Shown in pieces: positions 21,003 through 47,990 of a stretch of 64,000 nt of DNA. Both the position numbers and the translations under genes were made by a program. Origin of the DNA: Desulfobacteraceae bacterium (GTDB taxonomy: Bacteria > Desulfobacterota > Desulfobacteria > Desulfobacterales > Desulfosarcinaceae). Where the stretch lies: NCBI GenBank assembly GCA_013003715.1, contig JABDIN010000108.1, forward strand, positions 62,001-126,000. The letters are read 5' to 3'. A model generated the notes under the pieces. It searched no databases. It was given only the letters and a program-made list of their open reading frames with translations, and had not been told where the DNA came from. Positions within the stretch are counted from its first letter, which is position 1. Every line of letters starts with the position of its first letter.

Positions 21003-21989
21003 TCAACGATATAAATGACATGCCGCCCAATGCCCGGCACCGGTATCGCAGAGTCCGGGTTCAATCTCACGGCAGATGGCCAGCGATTGCCTGCAACGAT
21101 CCACAAAACGGCATCCCATGGGCAGATCCAGCGGGCTGGGGATCTCCCGATCCATGGGAACGGGCGTCCGCGCCCTGGCTTTTTTCGGATCCGGTATAGG
21201 GATTGCCGACAACAGCATTTGCGTATACGGGTGCAGCGGGTTGGCATAAATCTCACGGCTGTCGGCCATCTCCACCATCCGGCCCAGATACATAACGCCC
21301 ATTTTGTCTGAAATATGCTTTACCATGGACAAATCATGGGCAATAAACAGATAGGTGAGACCGAGGTCGGCCTGCAAGTCCTCGAGCATGTTGACCACCT
21401 GGGCCTGGATGGACACATCCAGAGCGCTGATGGGTTCGTCACATATGATCAATGACGGGTTGATGGCAATGGCCCGGGCGATACCGATGCGCTGGCGTTG
21501 CCCCCCGGAAAACTCATGGGGGTACCTGCCGGCATGGGCAGCGTCCAGTCCCACCCTGCGGAGCAATCCATCCACCCGATCCCGTCGCTCCGCCGGCGTC
21601 CCTATATTATGGATGTCCAGCGGTTCGCTGATAATATCCTGAACCGTCATCCGCGCGTTCAAGGAGGCAAACGGATCCTGGAAAATCATCTGGATTTTCC
21701 GGCGAACCGGCATCAACTCCGATGAATTGAGCGGCGCAATATCCTGACCCTCGAATATGATCCGGCCCGCCGTGGGCCGGTAAAGACGAATAATCGTCCG
21801 CGCACAGGTGGATTTTCCGCATCCGGATTCACCCACCAAACCAAAGGTTTCGCCGGAACGGATACCAAAGCTTACCCCATCCACCGCTTTGAGCTGGTGA
21901 TGATGACGGCCGAAGGTCCCGTGTTTCACCGGAAAATATTTTTTCAAGCCCGCTACTTCAAGCAGCACGGGGGTGGTATCAATTGACAT
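21003..21989 (-). CDS. Oligopeptide ABC transporter ATP-binding protein (OppF-like)
   Basis: Cytoplasmic ATPase of the peptide transporter, 328 residues. Walker A GESGCGKST (53-61), signature FSGGQRQRIGIARA, Walker B LIICDEPISALD and the switch histidine (IAHDLSMVKH) are all intact. The C terminus contains the oligopeptide-type extension (HPYTQMLLSAIPIP) and four cysteines (CRFVDRCRQSLAICREIEPGLC spans about 22 residues), as in members that carry a 4Fe-4S cluster. It overlaps the end of the preceding ATPase gene by 11 bases. Confidence 0.94.
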   Translation of the reverse strand: MSIDTTPVLLEVAGLKKYFPVKHGTFGRHHHQLKAVDGVSFGIRSGETFGLVGESGCGKSTCARTIIRLYRPTAGRIIFEGQDIAPLNSSELMPVRRKIQMIFQDPFASLNARMTVQDIISEPLDIHNIGTPAERRDRVDGLLRRVGLDAAHAGRYPHEFSGGQRQRIGIARAIAINPSLIICDEPISALDVSIQAQVVNMLEDLQADLGLTYLFIAHDLSMVKHISDKMGVMYLGRMVEMADSREIYANPLHPYTQMLLSAIPIPDPKKARARTPVPMDREIPSPLDLPMGCRFVDRCRQSLAICREIEPGLCDTGAGHWAACHLYR

Positions 21990-23001
21990 AATTTTTCTGT
22001 CTTTCTAAAAACCGGTTACGATCCGGTGCCCCCGGATGCAACCGCCAACACAGGGACCGGCGGCCGGGAGCACTCGAAAAGTAGGCCGGAATTTTCAGCC
22101 GGCATATCTGCAGGGCAAACCGGCAGCGGGGGAAAAACGGACAACCGGCCGGCGGATTGAGCATATCCGGCGGTGACCCGGCAATGGGCGACAGCCGTTG
22201 TTTCTCCTCAACATCCACCCGGGGTACGGAAGCCAGCAGACCCCAGGTATACGGGTGCCGGGGTCGGTAGAAAATATCCTCCACCGATGCCTCCTCCATG
22301 ATCATGCCCCCATACATCACGATTACCCGGGACACGGCTTCGGCGATCACCCCCAGATCGTGGGTGATGAGGATCACCGCCGTATTCAGCTCCCGTTGAA
22401 TCTGCTTGAGCAGCAGGATGATTTGCGCCTGAATCGTTACGTCCAGCGCCGTACTGGGTTCATCGGCAATTAGCAGGTCAGGATCGCAGCTCAAGGCCAT
22501 GGCGATCATGACCCGTTGCCTCATGCCACCGGAAAATTCATGGGGATACGCATTCAATCGCTGGTCCGGAGATGGAATCCGCACTAGTTCTAATAACTCC
22601 ACGGCGCGATGCCGGGCGGCCTTTCGGGAAATGCGCCGATGCACCCGTAGTGTCTCCATGATTTGTTCGCCGATGGTCAGGGTTGGGTTCAACGAAGTCA
22701 TGGGGTCCTGGAAGATCATGGACAGGCAATCGCCTCGAAGCGCCCTCATCTGCCGTTCATTCTTATCGAGCAGGTTTTCACCCTTGAACAAAGCGCGCCC
22801 GGCAATGGTTTTTCCCGGGGATTTCAGCAATTGCAGCACCGACAGCAAGGTGACGCTCTTCCCGCTCCCCGACTCCCCCACGATACCCACCATTTCTCCG
22901 GCGTTGACCCGAAAATTCACCCCCCGCACCGCCTGCACCTCTCCCTGATGGGTGAAAAACGATGTGGTCAGATTATCGACTTCAAGTAAAGTAGCGCCCA
23001 T
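21979..23001 (-). CDS. Oligopeptide ABC transporter ATP-binding protein (OppD-like)
   Basis: Second ATPase of the peptide transporter, 340 residues. Walker A GESGSGKS (42-49), signature FSGGMRQRVMIAMAL, Walker B LLIADEPSTALD and ITHDLGVIAE are present. The C-terminal oligopeptide extension has HPYTWGLLASVPRVD and a cysteine motif (CPFFPRCRFALQIC). Paired OppD/OppF-like ATPases make an asymmetric nucleotide-binding dimer. It is separated from the upstream permease gene by 340 bases that hold a tandem repeat, unusual for genes that should be co-expressed. Confidence 0.94.
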   Translation of the reverse strand: MGATLLEVDNLTTSFFTHQGEVQAVRGVNFRVNAGEMVGIVGESGSGKSVTLLSVLQLLKSPGKTIAGRALFKGENLLDKNERQMRALRGDCLSMIFQDPMTSLNPTLTIGEQIMETLRVHRRISRKAARHRAVELLELVRIPSPDQRLNAYPHEFSGGMRQRVMIAMALSCDPDLLIADEPSTALDVTIQAQIILLLKQIQRELNTAVILITHDLGVIAEAVSRVIVMYGGMIMEEASVEDIFYRPRHPYTWGLLASVPRVDVEEKQRLSPIAGSPPDMLNPPAGCPFFPRCRFALQICRLKIPAYFSSAPGRRSLCWRLHPGAPDRNRFLERQKNYVN

Positions 23002-23116
23002 AGAACCCTTTAGATCAATGATTACCGCCTGATTTTAAATCGTAATTGAATCAGCAGCCGATGTATATACACCAATTGACCGCGGTTTGGATGTTTTTTC
23101 ATTCCGCTATGCAAAA

Positions 23117-23339
23117 GCCATGGAACGTTGCAAAGGCCGGAGGGCTTCAGAAACAAGGCGACGAGGGTGAATGCCATAGTCGGACCTATTGCGAACCCTC
23201 GGCAACGCCGTATCTGGAGCCATGGAACCTTGCAAAGGCCGGAGGATTTCAGAGACAAGGCGACGAGGGTGAAAGCCATAGTCGGTCCTATTGCGAACCC
23301 TCGGCAACGCCGTATCTGGAGCCCTCCGGCCTTTGCAAC
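23117..23339. repeat. Two 102-bp tandem units closed by a 19-base inverted repeat
   Basis: Unit 1 (23117-23218) and unit 2 (23219-23320) are direct repeats of 102 bases differing at about six positions. Each begins GCCATGGAAC and ends GCCGTATCTGGA, and each contains CGAGGGT and ACCCTCG as an internal inverted pair. Immediately after unit 2, bases 23321-23339 are the exact reverse complement of 23127-23145 (starting GTTGCAAAGG). The whole element sits in the 340-base gap between the permease and ATPase genes of the transporter and carries no convincing gene; short frames through it are by-products. It looks like a dispersed extragenic palindromic repeat. Confidence 0.9.
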
Positions 23340-23341
23340 AT

Positions 23342-24535
23342 TCATTTTCGCAGCCTCGGATCCAGTGCATCCCGCAATCCATCCACCAGAAAATTGAAGG
23401 CAAACATGGTGATGCTGATGGCCAGTGCCGGGATGAACAATTGATATGGGAACGAGCGGAAGGTCCCCAGAGCATCCGAACACAAGGTTCCCCAGGAGGC
23501 CATGGGCGGGGCAACCCCCAGCCCGATAAAACTCATGAACGCCTCGATGAAAATAGCGCCGGGGATGAGCATGGCCAGCGTCACGATGATCGGCCCCATG
23601 GTATTGGGCAACAGGTGCCGGAACAGAATTCGCCGGGTCCCCGCCCCCATGGTTTTAGCCGCATAAACAAATTCCTGTTCTTTCAGGGTCAGGATCTGGC
23701 CGCGTACAATCCGGGCCATATCCACCCAGAACACGGTGCCGATGGCAAGGACGATGCTGGTAAAGCCGGATTCCAGCAGCACCATGATCAGAATCACATA
23801 GAGGGTGAGCGGGATGGTATTGATGATCTCCACGATGCGCATCATGACGTTGTCCACCGTTCCGCCGAGATAACCGGATATCCCCCCATACAGGACACCG
23901 ATGACAAAATTCACCACCGTGGCGATCAGGGCCACCAGCAGTGAGATCCGCGCACCGTATATCTGCCGGATAAACAGATCCCGGCCCAGGGCGTCGGTAC
24001 CCAGAAAATAAGTCTTGTTCCACACCCGGCTGCCGGTGGTTATTTCATTGGCATTTTCATCCAGAAGACGGACCGGCAATTGTGTGTAATCCATCCTGTA
24101 TTTCCGCCCGTTCAGCTCATACAGAATTTGTTTTTCAGCTACCAGACGTTGTTTCGGCTTTATCAGCCCGAGAAGCTTGCCGCTCCGGGCCACCTGATAC
24201 AATTTGAAATTTTTATTCAAAAACACGAATTGATCATTGCCCAGGTCGTAAAGCGGCAGCAACGGCGGGACATTGGCATAGGTCAACTCCTGGTAGTGAT
24301 AGTTGTGTGTCCAGAAGAAAGGGACAAAAACCGCGCTCAATACCAGCAGTATGATAATCCACAGGCCCATGAGGGCCATTTTATTTCGGGTAAACCGCCG
24401 CCATACATCCTGTCCGTATGAAAAGCCCTCACCGGCAATCCGTTCTTTTTCCGTGGCCGCAGGCGCCAATTCCTCCCAGAGTCCGGGAGCAATGTGTTCT
24501 GCGCTATCGACGATGTGATGTCTATCTGCGTTCAT
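23342..24535 (-). CDS. Peptide ABC transporter permease (OppC-like)
   Basis: Inner-membrane permease of 397 residues. After a charged cytoplasmic start (~50 residues, including TEKERIAGEGFSYGQDVWRR) comes the first membrane helix (MALMGLWIIILLVLSAVFV). A periplasmic insert of about 100 residues follows before GTDALGRDLF, the entry to the conserved transport domain. The coupling EAA loop reads EFVYAAKTMGAGTRRILFRHLLPN. Ordinary OppC/DppC proteins are near 300 residues, so the insert makes this one long. It follows the OppB-like gene by 54 bases and precedes the repeat element. Confidence 0.93.
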   Translation of the reverse strand: MNADRHHIVDSAEHIAPGLWEELAPAATEKERIAGEGFSYGQDVWRRFTRNKMALMGLWIIILLVLSAVFVPFFWTHNYHYQELTYANVPPLLPLYDLGNDQFVFLNKNFKLYQVARSGKLLGLIKPKQRLVAEKQILYELNGRKYRMDYTQLPVRLLDENANEITTGSRVWNKTYFLGTDALGRDLFIRQIYGARISLLVALIATVVNFVIGVLYGGISGYLGGTVDNVMMRIVEIINTIPLTLYVILIMVLLESGFTSIVLAIGTVFWVDMARIVRGQILTLKEQEFVYAAKTMGAGTRRILFRHLLPNTMGPIIVTLAMLIPGAIFIEAFMSFIGLGVAPPMASWGTLCSDALGTFRSFPYQLFIPALAISITMFAFNFLVDGLRDALDPRLRK

Positions 24536-24589: not shown

Positions 24590-25519
24590 TTACCCGGTTG
24601 ATTTTCCAAATTTAATTCTAGGGTCAATGAACACGTAAAACAGGTCCACGATAAACACCATGACGATGAGAAAGGCCGCGTAAAAAATGGTGATGCCCAT
24701 GATCGTGGTGTAATCCCTGTTGCTGATGCTCTGAACGAAATACTTTCCGATGCCGGGAAGGGCGAAGATCTGCTCCACCACGAATGAACCGCATAAAAGA
24801 TTGGCCGCCACCGGACCGAGTACCGTGATGACGGGAATCAGCGCATTTTTCAACCCGTGCTTTAACAATATCTGGTGCTGGTACAATCCCTTTGAACGGG
24901 CGGTGACCATGTAGTCCTGCTGTAATACGTCCAGAAGGCTCGACCGCGTCAGCCTGGCCACAAAGGCCAGCCAGAATCCGGCCAGGGCGACCACCGGCAA
25001 TATGTAACCGCTCCAGTGCGTGACACCAAATGTCGGGAGCCACCCCAATTTGAGCGCAAAAAAATAAAGGATGATGGTGGCCAGTACAAATGAGGGAATG
25101 GCGACACCCACCGTGGCCATGACCATGACCACGGCGTCCTGCCATTTATTCTGTTTGACGGCGGCGACAATGCCTAGGGGAATACCCGCGAAGACGACCA
25201 GCAGAACAGCCAGCACCCCGGCTTTGAACGTCACCGGGAAACCTTTCCGTATCAGCTCGTTGACGGTCACGCCGGGATATTTGAACGAGGGACCGAAATC
25301 TAATCGCAGAATACCCAGGAGGTAATCCGTATATTGTCTCCAGAGCGGATCATCCAGGTGATACTTCGCCCGCAGGGCCTTTTCCACTTCCGGCTGCAAT
25401 GCTTTTTCAGCGGTGAAAGGGCCGCCGGGCACGGCATGCATCATACAAAAAGTCAGCGTGATGACCAGCAGCAGCGTGATCACCATGGAAACCAGGCGTT
25501 TAAGGATATATCCAGTCAA
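24590..25519 (-). CDS. Peptide ABC transporter permease (OppB-like)
   Basis: Inner-membrane permease; with TTG at 25519 as start the product has 309 residues, beginning LTGYILKRLVSMVITLLL as OppB/DppB proteins do. A longer frame reaches TTG 25570 but adds unconserved residues, and no ATG fits, so the start is uncertain. Family features are the first helix, then HAVPGGPF, the coupling loop YMVTARSKGLYQHQILLKHG and FVVEQIFALPGIGKYFVQSI. It is the first gene of the minus-strand transporter operon (B-like, C-like, repeat, D-like, F-like, binding protein). The 290-base gap upstream is shared with the divergent VOC gene. Confidence 0.91.
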   Translation of the reverse strand: MTGYILKRLVSMVITLLLVITLTFCMMHAVPGGPFTAEKALQPEVEKALRAKYHLDDPLWRQYTDYLLGILRLDFGPSFKYPGVTVNELIRKGFPVTFKAGVLAVLLVVFAGIPLGIVAAVKQNKWQDAVVMVMATVGVAIPSFVLATIILYFFALKLGWLPTFGVTHWSGYILPVVALAGFWLAFVARLTRSSLLDVLQQDYMVTARSKGLYQHQILLKHGLKNALIPVITVLGPVAANLLCGSFVVEQIFALPGIGKYFVQSISNRDYTTIMGITIFYAAFLIVMVFIVDLFYVFIDPRIKFGKSTG

Positions 25520-25684
25520 AATAATGGTTCTTCGATCAGGTTGTGGGTCAGGTGATGCCCAGGCACGCAAGGCCGAAAAATGCGACCGGCATGTGAAAAA
25601 GGAATTATTACTTGATTCACATGAAAAGAGTCAAGAAAGATCCGGGTATTCGCCAGGGAGATTGCATGAAAAATGTTAAATCAA

Positions 25685-45620: not shown

Positions 45621-47990
45621 ATGCGAAAACAGACAATGCAAAAAATAACGGATAGGGACGGGTACATCCTGTTGTGGATGATCCTTATCCTGCTGTTTCT
45701 GTCCGTCACCGCCGTGGCCATCAACCGGGGGACCGGCATGAAGACCCAAATGACTGCGTCCATGCGCCAATCCACCCAAATCAATTTCGGAGAACAGGCG
45801 ATGATCGAACACGGCCTGTGGGACCTGACCCGGGACCCGGGCCTGCGGGTGCCTGATCCGGGAGAAGATGTCACTTTCAACGGAACCGCTTTCAAGCGCC
45901 GGTTAACGGCCGCCACCCAGACCGGGTACACGGATGCCGTGGCCATTGACATCGCCAGGCCCGATGCGGACCGGCATCTTCGCGCTTACTACCGGTACTA
46001 TGTCCTGCCGCCCTATGCGGGGTATGACAGCGGTGTCGAACCCATTCATATTGCCCGGGACGCCACCGGCGACCTTTATTTTGCCGATCCCCAGACCCAT
46101 TGCGTGTACAAACGCAACGCCATTTCCGGGGAGATCAATGTGGTGGCCGGCACCGGCGCCTCGGGGGACAATGGCGATGGGGGGCCGGCCACGGCGGCTC
46201 AACTCAACAAACCGTTTGGCGTGGCGCTGGACACGGCGAAAAACATTTATATCGCGGACAAGGACAATCATCGTATTCGAAAAGTGGATGCGGTCACCGG
46301 GTTGATCTCAACGATAGCCGGCACCGGCGATGCGGGAGATGATGGTGACGGGGGACCGGCCACCGGTGCAAGGATCAATAAACCAAGGGCTGTCAGGGTC
46401 GGACCATCCGGTAACATTTACATCGCGGATACGGACAACAATAAAATCCGGAGGGTCTCCACCGGGATTATATCGACAGTGGCCGGCATTGGAAGCGCCG
46501 GTGACGACGGGGATGGCGGACCGGCAATATCAGCGAAATTGAACAGACCCAACGATGTGTTTGTACAAACCACCGGAGATTTCTACATCGCCGATACCGA
46601 CAATAATCGCATCCGATTCGTGGATGCCGGTACCGGCATGATTACGGCCTATGCCGGCACCGGCGACAAAGGAGACAACGGTGACGGCGGACCGGCCACA
46701 GCGGCGGAACTTGGGGAGCCGGGTGCGGTGTCCGTGGATGCCATCGGCAATGTGTTCATCGCGGACACCGGCAATTCAAAAATCCGCAGGGTGGAGAAAA
46801 GCTCCGGCATCATTACCACCATCGCCGGCACCGGCACCGCTGGATCCGATGGTGATAACGGACCGGCCGTCAATGCCGTTTTAAATAAACCGGCCGGGCT
46901 CTGCCATGGGGCTTCAGGAGTCATCTACATCGCCGATTCCAAAAACGGCAGTTTGCGAAAATTCGAAGCCGGCGCCACCATCACCACCATATACAACTCA
47001 AAGGGATTGGGACTAAACAAACCCGGTCAACTCGCCCTTGATACGGATAACAATTTATACATCGCCGATACGGATAACCATACCATTCCCAAGATCGACG
47101 CGTTTGGCAGCAAGGCCATCATCGCCGGTGCCGGCGGGGCCGGTTTCAGCGGCGACGGGGGACCGGCGACGGATGCCAAGCTGAACCGGCCGGAAGGGCT
47201 GATCCTGGATACCCTGAACAACATTTATTTTGCCGACAGGGATAACCATTGCATTCGCAAAGTGGAAGCGTCCACCGGCATCATCTCCACCATTGCCGGC
47301 GAGGGCACGAAATCCGGTGATACCGGTCTCGGGGGGCCCGCCACGGCAGCCAGGTTAAACAAACCAACCGCTCTGGCGATGGACGATGCCGGACATCTGT
47401 ATATTGCAGACACCGACAACCACAGGATCTGCGTGGTCAACCTCGGCACCGGTATCATCAGCCTCGTGGCCGGAACCGGGGAAGGCGGATTCGACGGTGA
47501 CGGCGGGCCGGCGACCGATGCAAAACTGAATAAACCCAGGGGTCTGTTTGTGGATGCGGACAACAATATTCTTATCGCCGATACGGACAACCATCGTATC
47601 CGCATGGTGGATGCCGGCACCGGGGCCATCTCAACGATCATCGGCAATGGCAGCAAAGGCAGTGCCGGGGATGGCGGCATGGCAGCGGCGGCTCAAGTGA
47701 ATAAGCCCCGGGGGATACTTGTGGACGGACCGGGAAATATATACGTCTCGGATACGGACAATCATAAAGTGCGCTTCGTCAGCCACCAGGACAACCGGAT
47801 AAGGACACTGGCGGGCATCGGCGATGCCGGATACGACGGCGACAACCAGCCGGCGGTGGATGCCAAGTTGAACAAGCCCTCGTCCATCGTCATGCCGGCG
47901 ACAAGGGGCGGCAGACGAATTTTCATCAGTGACAAGGACAACAACCGGATTCGCGTGTTGGTGCTGAAAAATGAAAAGGTGCTGTATTAA
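45621..47990 (+). CDS. Pilin-like (GspK/PilX-type) protein fused to NHL-repeat propeller
   Basis: A 789-residue protein with two very different parts. Residues 1-~140 resemble a GspK/PilX minor pseudopilin: short leader, then DGYILLWMILILLFLSVTAV without Glu at +5, then MTASMRQSTQINFGEQAMIE. From about 165 to the end there are roughly eleven NHL repeats of 55-57 residues, each with a core like GDGGPATAAQLNKPFGV and IYIADTDNHRIR; one (near 460) is degenerate. This is enough for one large or two smaller beta-propellers. The gene lies exactly where gspK is expected in a pseudopilin operon. It probably presents the propeller at the tip or outside of the filament; that is inference. Confidence 0.9.
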   Translation: MRKQTMQKITDRDGYILLWMILILLFLSVTAVAINRGTGMKTQMTASMRQSTQINFGEQAMIEHGLWDLTRDPGLRVPDPGEDVTFNGTAFKRRLTAATQTGYTDAVAIDIARPDADRHLRAYYRYYVLPPYAGYDSGVEPIHIARDATGDLYFADPQTHCVYKRNAISGEINVVAGTGASGDNGDGGPATAAQLNKPFGVALDTAKNIYIADKDNHRIRKVDAVTGLISTIAGTGDAGDDGDGGPATGARINKPRAVRVGPSGNIYIADTDNNKIRRVSTGIISTVAGIGSAGDDGDGGPAISAKLNRPNDVFVQTTGDFYIADTDNNRIRFVDAGTGMITAYAGTGDKGDNGDGGPATAAELGEPGAVSVDAIGNVFIADTGNSKIRRVEKSSGIITTIAGTGTAGSDGDNGPAVNAVLNKPAGLCHGASGVIYIADSKNGSLRKFEAGATITTIYNSKGLGLNKPGQLALDTDNNLYIADTDNHTIPKIDAFGSKAIIAGAGGAGFSGDGGPATDAKLNRPEGLILDTLNNIYFADRDNHCIRKVEASTGIISTIAGEGTKSGDTGLGGPATAARLNKPTALAMDDAGHLYIADTDNHRICVVNLGTGIISLVAGTGEGGFDGDGGPATDAKLNKPRGLFVDADNNILIADTDNHRIRMVDAGTGAISTIIGNGSKGSAGDGGMAAAAQVNKPRGILVDGPGNIYVSDTDNHKVRFVSHQDNRIRTLAGIGDAGYDGDNQPAVDAKLNKPSSIVMPATRGGRRIFISDKDNNRIRVLVLKNEKVLY

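Follow-up and report, generated by a model that had tools for sequence, protein, structure and literature searches.

The described systems that come closest to the locus analysed here are MITEs, the IS1380 family and the REP/BIME palindromes. IS1380 elements make duplications of 4–5 bp. In the parts of the review PMC10969869 that concern it, Chunjie, a MITE of Geobacter uraniireducens (Chen et al. 2008), is a 235-bp element with size variants of 178–235 bp; one copy lies in an operon, others are intergenic, and partial copies occur without TIRs or DRs. Corresponding parts of PMC10969869 present the Correia elements of Neisseria as short MITEs that can lie in transcripts, where RNase III cleaves at the TIRs. 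The word IS1380 is absent from the main text of this review. REP sequences, in the relevant portions of PMC3733652 and PMC2817692, are palindromes of 20–40 bp which take alternating orientations in BIMEs. None of the best-ranked literature matches concerned IS1380-derived MITEs or MITEs of Desulfobacterales, and the family presented here seems to be undescribed so far, though of a known kind.

The stretch analysed (the window) comprises 64,000 nt from a Desulfobacteraceae bacterium and includes an oligopeptide transporter operon interrupted by a repeated palindromic element. This element is very probably a decayed and tandemly duplicated copy belonging to a MITE family of Desulfobacterales. 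The features of the locus are as follows.

21003..21989, minus strand: oppF-type ATPase (ABC_tran, oligo_HPY)
21979..23001, minus strand: oppD-type oligopeptide ABC ATPase (ABC_tran, oligo_HPY), the downstream gene
23116..23217, plus strand: unit 1, with the left TIR remnant AACGTTGCAAAGG from 23124 and the hairpin body
23127..23146, plus strand: left partner of the exact 20-bp inverted repeat
23218..23319, plus strand: unit 2, the second copy
23320..23339, minus strand: right partner of the exact 20-bp inverted repeat
23320..23343, plus strand: right arm with the right TIR remnant AGCCCTCCGGCCTTTGCAACATT, terminal GGGG missing
23342..24535, minus strand: oppC-type permease (OppC_N, BPD_transp_1), the upstream gene
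24590..25570, minus strand: oppB-type permease (BPD_transp_1)

The earlier note, made from the sequence of the window, had placed the element between the permease and ATPase genes of one ABC transporter, and the protein domains agree with this (an OppC-type permease and an oligopeptide ATPase). It had also regarded the operon as split. The oppD gene starts 340 nt after the oppC stop, with the element filling much of the gap, against −4, −4, −1, 2, 14 and 234 nt between OppC and OppD in six distant homologues. These are the loci, among 29 others, in which the gap was measurable by a Walker-motif script (23 were not measurable; two of the 29 are paralogues from the own genome, neither of them among the six). 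No close OppC homologue was found in the 29 other family genomes, the best match outside the own genome being 50% identical over residues 176–396, and neither an empty nor a filled orthologous site was found.

The element consists of two head-to-tail direct units of 102 nt which, as had been noted, are about 94% identical (96 of 102 positions). Searching the window for a 23-base stretch of the unit with ≤3 mismatches gives two occurrences, against a mean of 0.00 in 100 shuffles, which excludes chance. Inverted arms at 23123–23154 and 23312–23343 are 91% complementary across 32 nt. The inverted copy reported by the earlier note was real but one base longer than the 19 bases given, the exact match being a 20-base sequence which encloses them (GTTGCAAAGGCCGGAGGGCT, 23127–23146 versus 23320–23339). 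The bounds of the element, put at 23117–23339, also required adjustment: this start lies one base inside the unit, which begins at 23116, and the inverted arm reaches 23343 and abuts the oppC stop codon (TCA at 23342–23344). Elsewhere in the window, a run of repeats of about 171 nt (46077–47779; 7 to 9 copies, 61–75% alike) is probably a repeat protein without relation to the element.

In a BLAST search of the own genome (E ≤ 0.001) no locus besides that of the window matches the element, and a 20-nt loop pattern (≤3 mismatches) finds only the window's two units. Among 31 genomes, the own genome included, BLAST detects relatives in eight at E ≤ 1e-5; G016 carries 33 matches at E ≤ 1. From 36 aligned copies, 25 were taken for a covariance model, R1; the 11 rows left out are unit 1 of the window and ten truncated, low-scoring or aberrant copies. 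Since unit 2 is among the 25 model sequences, its own match to R1 is by construction. At E ≤ 0.001, R1 matches 20 of 30 family genomes (own included), with up to 44 matches per genome, a copy matched on both strands counting twice. The own genome has 14 matches; among the 13 listed, three are the window locus and ten are other loci, nine of which belong to a sister family (family 2, of which R1 contained no row from this genome) and one of which (on C111) resembles the window's family. The earlier note had named uniqueness in the genome, together with presence at one site in all relatives and coding-like conservation, as signs against a mobile repeat: copies are dispersed, the model matches other loci of the genome although BLAST alone finds only the window locus, and the conservation is of the hairpin type.

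A 30-base hairpin pattern retrieves 51 stretches from named genomes, several of them sharing one genome. All except one, in a Calditrichota MAG, come from records called Desulfobacterales, Desulfobacteraceae, Deltaproteobacteria, Desulfosarcina or Desulfatitalea (50/51). With L100 (232 bases) excluded, the 50 stretches compared with the model all match at E ≤ 0.001, their scores exceeding 60 bits in 43 cases and lying at 25.7–51.3 bits in seven, which is no independent test because they were fetched by the hairpin pattern and some copies were already in the model. Identical stretches are shared by G018 and G016 with Desulfatitalea records and by G039 with a Desulfosarcina record, these records belonging to the window's family by the grouping of the search tool. 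Neither the long form described below nor a third repeat family has a match in plasmids or phages. In viral contigs the pattern of TIR plus arm gives no match and a loose core pattern gives five, one of which matches the model weakly (20.7 bits). An unrelated dispersed repeat of about 60 bp occurs some 39 times in G031 (for example at L344) and fewer times in seven others of ten genomes.

The edges of the elements were set where homology stops in an alignment of copies with their flanks. They define a long form of about 253–258 bp with the TIRs CCCCAAYGTTGCA and TGCAACRTTGGGG, built as CCCCAACGTTGCAAAA, the hairpin, a second segment and TTATGCAACGATGGGG. When ends are paired with at most one mismatch each to a degenerate TIR pattern, a 4-bp duplication directly outside the TIRs is exact in 31 of 55 unique paired copies, 26 of these 31 having the form TNNA; the remaining 24 are without an exact duplication, 14 being one base off and 10 differing by more. 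At shifted positions exact 4-bp duplications number 5 in 990, and at a length of 5 bp none of the 55 is exact. Looser ends combined with a required exact duplication give 51 elements, 42 with TNNA and 27 with a length of 253–258 bp, a set which is selected for the duplication and has no control. Long forms with shared TIRs, many flanked by exact 4-bp duplications that are mostly TNNA, show that the family moves by transposition. As a whole it is non-coding, dispersed and multicopy, with TIRs and duplications of fixed length, and the earlier note's proposal of a non-autonomous mobile repeat is supported by these properties more strongly than by the window alone. Elements with exact duplications are mostly intergenic and rarer inside genes than random points: by a crude test based on stop-to-stop frames, an open frame covers 11 of 40 reconstructed empty sites but 383 of 461 nearby control points.

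The same data bear on the kinship with REP/BIME families that the earlier note had proposed, according to which the element would be a REP/BIME or REPIN, a short palindrome spread by a RAYT (a Y1 tyrosine transposase). The element is indeed palindromic, mostly intergenic and dispersed, and carries a GTAG motif (ATAG in the window), but this motif is located in the apical stem and not at the foot, and the units in the window are head-to-tail and not in the alternating orientation of BIMEs. Long copies also differ from palindromes of 20–40 bp in measuring about 255 bp, in their TIRs of 13 bp and in their exact target duplications of 4 bp. We consider a REP/BIME origin very unlikely and discarded it on the grounds of ends, size and duplications. 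An integron attC site, considered on its general features, was likewise dropped because the copies have target duplications.

Short forms of the family, which measure 22 (seven copies), 25, 81, 86, 122 and 126 bp, retain the ends and lose the interior; the form of about 120 bp is without the second segment. Other elements have lengths between 157 and 477 bp. The 22-bp elements consist of both ends fused, seven of them having their own exact 4-bp duplications. Four read CCCCAATGTTGCAACATTGGGG (L177, L300, L303 and L304, with duplications TTAA, TTAA, TTTA and TAAA respectively); 22-bp forms without a duplication are found at L298, L301 and L302. Fused-TIR loci with 4-bp duplications include L177, L285, L299, L300, L303 and L304. 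Family 2 has comparable 45-bp and 82-bp forms with 5-bp duplications. We read these forms as the products of near-precise deletion between short repeats where the hairpin has its foot, though they may also be mobile on their own. The graded series from about 255 to 22 bp, with duplications around many of its members, documents in natural copies the way in which palindromic transposons may break down.

The window copy resembles the short form of about 120 bp. Unit 2 and the right arm together constitute one complete short-form element, whose core hairpin is placed by the model at 23222–23334, while unit 1 is cut off at an AGCC microhomology ahead of the right arm. AGCC recurs at 23116, 23218 and 23320, the edges of the doubled unit, and the tandem is therefore such as a duplication between AGCC repeats would leave, possibly through replication slippage at the hairpin. 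Tandem copies may recur in the family, since the end of a further unit precedes the element in L062 (part of which is masked); L062 (G031) and L012 (G012) are the sole orthologous pair seen, and the element is present in both. In the window the terminal CCCC and GGGG are replaced at both ends and the target duplication is absent; judged from its sequence, this is a decayed copy which is assigned to the MITE family by homology of its body and not by intact TIR ends and a duplication. Insertion at the end of oppC is the probable origin of the copy, though it cannot be proved here, both the outermost CCCC/GGGG and the duplication having been lost; we count these losses, and the lack of an orthologous site, against our reading. 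What appeared as an odd operon spacer would be one copy of a mobile-element family that is widespread among Desulfobacterales.

How the family is mobilized was approached through family 2, whose members in the own genome have the ends CCTGAATYTTGCA and a hairpin homologous to that of the window's family (best 97.4 bits with the model built without it). A 5-bp duplication is exact in 9 of 15 unique paired copies of family 2 and in none of 270 controls. In G012, a 1,777-bp element present in six copies has the family-2 TIR CCTGAATTTTGCA and an exact 5-bp duplication in all six; its 488-aa transposase matches the IS1380 model NF033539 at 201.4 bits (cut-off 180) and PF13701 at 106.7 bits (cut-off 34.7). 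The own genome retains an IS1380 N-terminal fragment on C94 (57% identical over 67 aa) behind the end CCTGAATCTTGTA, which is a one-mismatch copy of the family-2/IS1380 TIR, and on C67 another copy of this end, CCTGAATCTTGCA, extends past the limit of the contig. The C94 fragment is truncated at the start of a CRISPR-like array made up of GGTTCATCCCCACGGGTGTGGGGAACA repeats (L247, from about 1820). Two PF13701 fragments are located on C10 (44.0 and 43.5 bits), and no IS ends were found around the one examined (L265). Joined-flank queries for empty sites of the IS at three sites gave matches in other genomes for the right flank of one site only (95% in G031, weaker in G016, G018 and G034), so that they revealed no empty site. 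The ends of family 2 support its putative mobilization by IS1380, with which it shares both TIR and duplication length; the searches for the CCCC family yielded no such partner.

For the window's own family we can only infer mobilization by IS1380, and there is real evidence against it. Because the sister family, with its homologous hairpin, shares its ends exactly with an IS1380 element and likewise has duplications of 5 bp, mobilization in trans by an IS1380-like transposase has, in our estimate, a slightly better than even chance of being correct. Mobilization of the MITE by another transposase, which would leave the rest of our reading intact, is a substantial though less probable possibility. 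It agrees with the duplication of 4 bp, not 5 bp, and with the rarity of PF13701, which at E ≤ 1e-8 matches in one of the 22 genomes with the hairpin element, many of them incomplete MAGs; among nine genomes searched, the element-bearing G016, G017, G018 and G040 have no PF13701 match over the cut-off, yet a G017 copy is 96.6% identical to one of G041. The hairpin model finds no match in seven transposase-bearing loci, IS1380 loci included, no autonomous element with CCCCAAYGTTGCA ends occurs among the TIR-pair matches listed, and no facing pair of CCCCAAYGTTGCA TIRs 1–3 kb apart (≤1 mismatch) was found in three genomes assembled into one or two contigs. With no autonomous partner and with PF13701 scarce, the family's own mobilizer may be another transposase or may have been lost. 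Against a mobilizer other than IS1380 are the hairpin homology and the TIR design (CC...A..TTGCA) similar to that of the IS1380-matching family, and another PF13701-type element in G041, with one stop in frame and flanked by the duplication TTTAA, which ends in CCCGGATATTGCA.

The hairpin itself is conserved as a structure, with the core consensus AAGGCG..GGG.TG...CGTA-loop-TAC....CCC..AACG..G.ATCTG. Of the 30 pairs in the alignment of 25 copies, 10 vary on both sides, a value reached by 2 of 500 shuffles, and there are 24 double-change cells, compared with 6.4 for the shuffles (none of the 500 reaches 24) and 2 to 6 for six slid controls, although a structure derived from the same alignment is favoured over its slid versions. 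The alignment indicates that the fold is maintained, by selection or by arm-to-arm copying; it does not tell the RNA from the DNA level. A comparable core layout, recognized by eye, occurs in a third repeat family (L164–L172; G017, G035, G037 and G041), the arms of which read GTAAGCGTTTACAGGG..CCCTGTGAACGCTTAC. Most of its copies have a conserved stretch similar to GTTCACGGGGTTGAA on their upstream side, and the family matches the model at, for example, 54.5 bits in G037. The two MITE families that carry the hairpin differ in ends and in duplication lengths, and the hairpin recurs in this third family. We regard it as unlikely, but worth stating, that the hairpin is a selected module carried by at least two MITE families. 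If this were true, the hairpin might serve a function in its own right, as RNA or as single-stranded DNA, and the 22-bp fused-TIR palindromes with target duplications would represent either the scars of a regular, near-precise excision or mobile DNA of extremely small size.

Folding of the mRNA, to which the earlier note had drawn attention, is marked: the RNA of the 340-nt oppC–oppD spacer folds at −129.6 kcal/mol (z −4.83), and none of 100 shuffles is as low. Such stability, the covariation and the position between co-directional operon genes would also be expected of a structured RNA regulator of the opp operon (a riboswitch, leader or attenuator) kept for its RNA fold. The copies have unrelated flanks, however, and often target duplications; the segment 22900–23500 has no Rfam match up to E = 1, and hence no membership in a known RNA family, and no terminator-like site, though 0.8 would be expected by chance. 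We judge such a regulator to be very unlikely, while the hairpin may act on mRNA after insertion. Five related loci gave three Rfam matches up to E = 1, and only a neighbouring SAM riboswitch passes its cut-off (64.7 bits; L150 343–441, minus strand, in G017, adjoining a MITE copy). Matches to protozoan SRP in L172 (30.5 bits, cut-off 65) and to mir-791 in L147 (23.2, cut-off 70) overlap the element and were taken as chance hairpin matches.

An effect of the inserted MITE copy on oppDF expression is plausible. No sigma-70-like promoter is detected in 22900–23500 (0.7 expected by chance), and we infer that the likeliest effect would operate through folded mRNA between oppBC and oppDF, in the manner of the Correia elements and RNase III. 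The arms in the operon mRNA would form a long double-stranded stem which RNase III might cut; alternatively, the stem may separate the stability of the oppBC message from that of the oppDF message.

Among known systems, IS1380 (NF033539, PF13701) provides a link through the G012 element, which shares the TIR CCTGAATTTTGCA and the 5-bp duplication with the sister family and so connects that MITE family with IS1380 through these two features; the window's own family differs from it in its TIR CCCCAAYGTTGCA, its 4-bp duplications and the lack of a hairpin in the IS loci. With REP/BIME, in so far as the sources describe them in the relevant portions, the window's family shares a palindromic, intergenic and dispersed character, but unlike them it has transposon TIRs, target duplications and a longer full form. 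The Correia elements, likened by their description in part of the review, offer a model for a possible effect in the opp operon. Chunjie, also likened only by the review's partial description, resembles the window's family in its size range, its operon copy and its partial copies devoid of ends.
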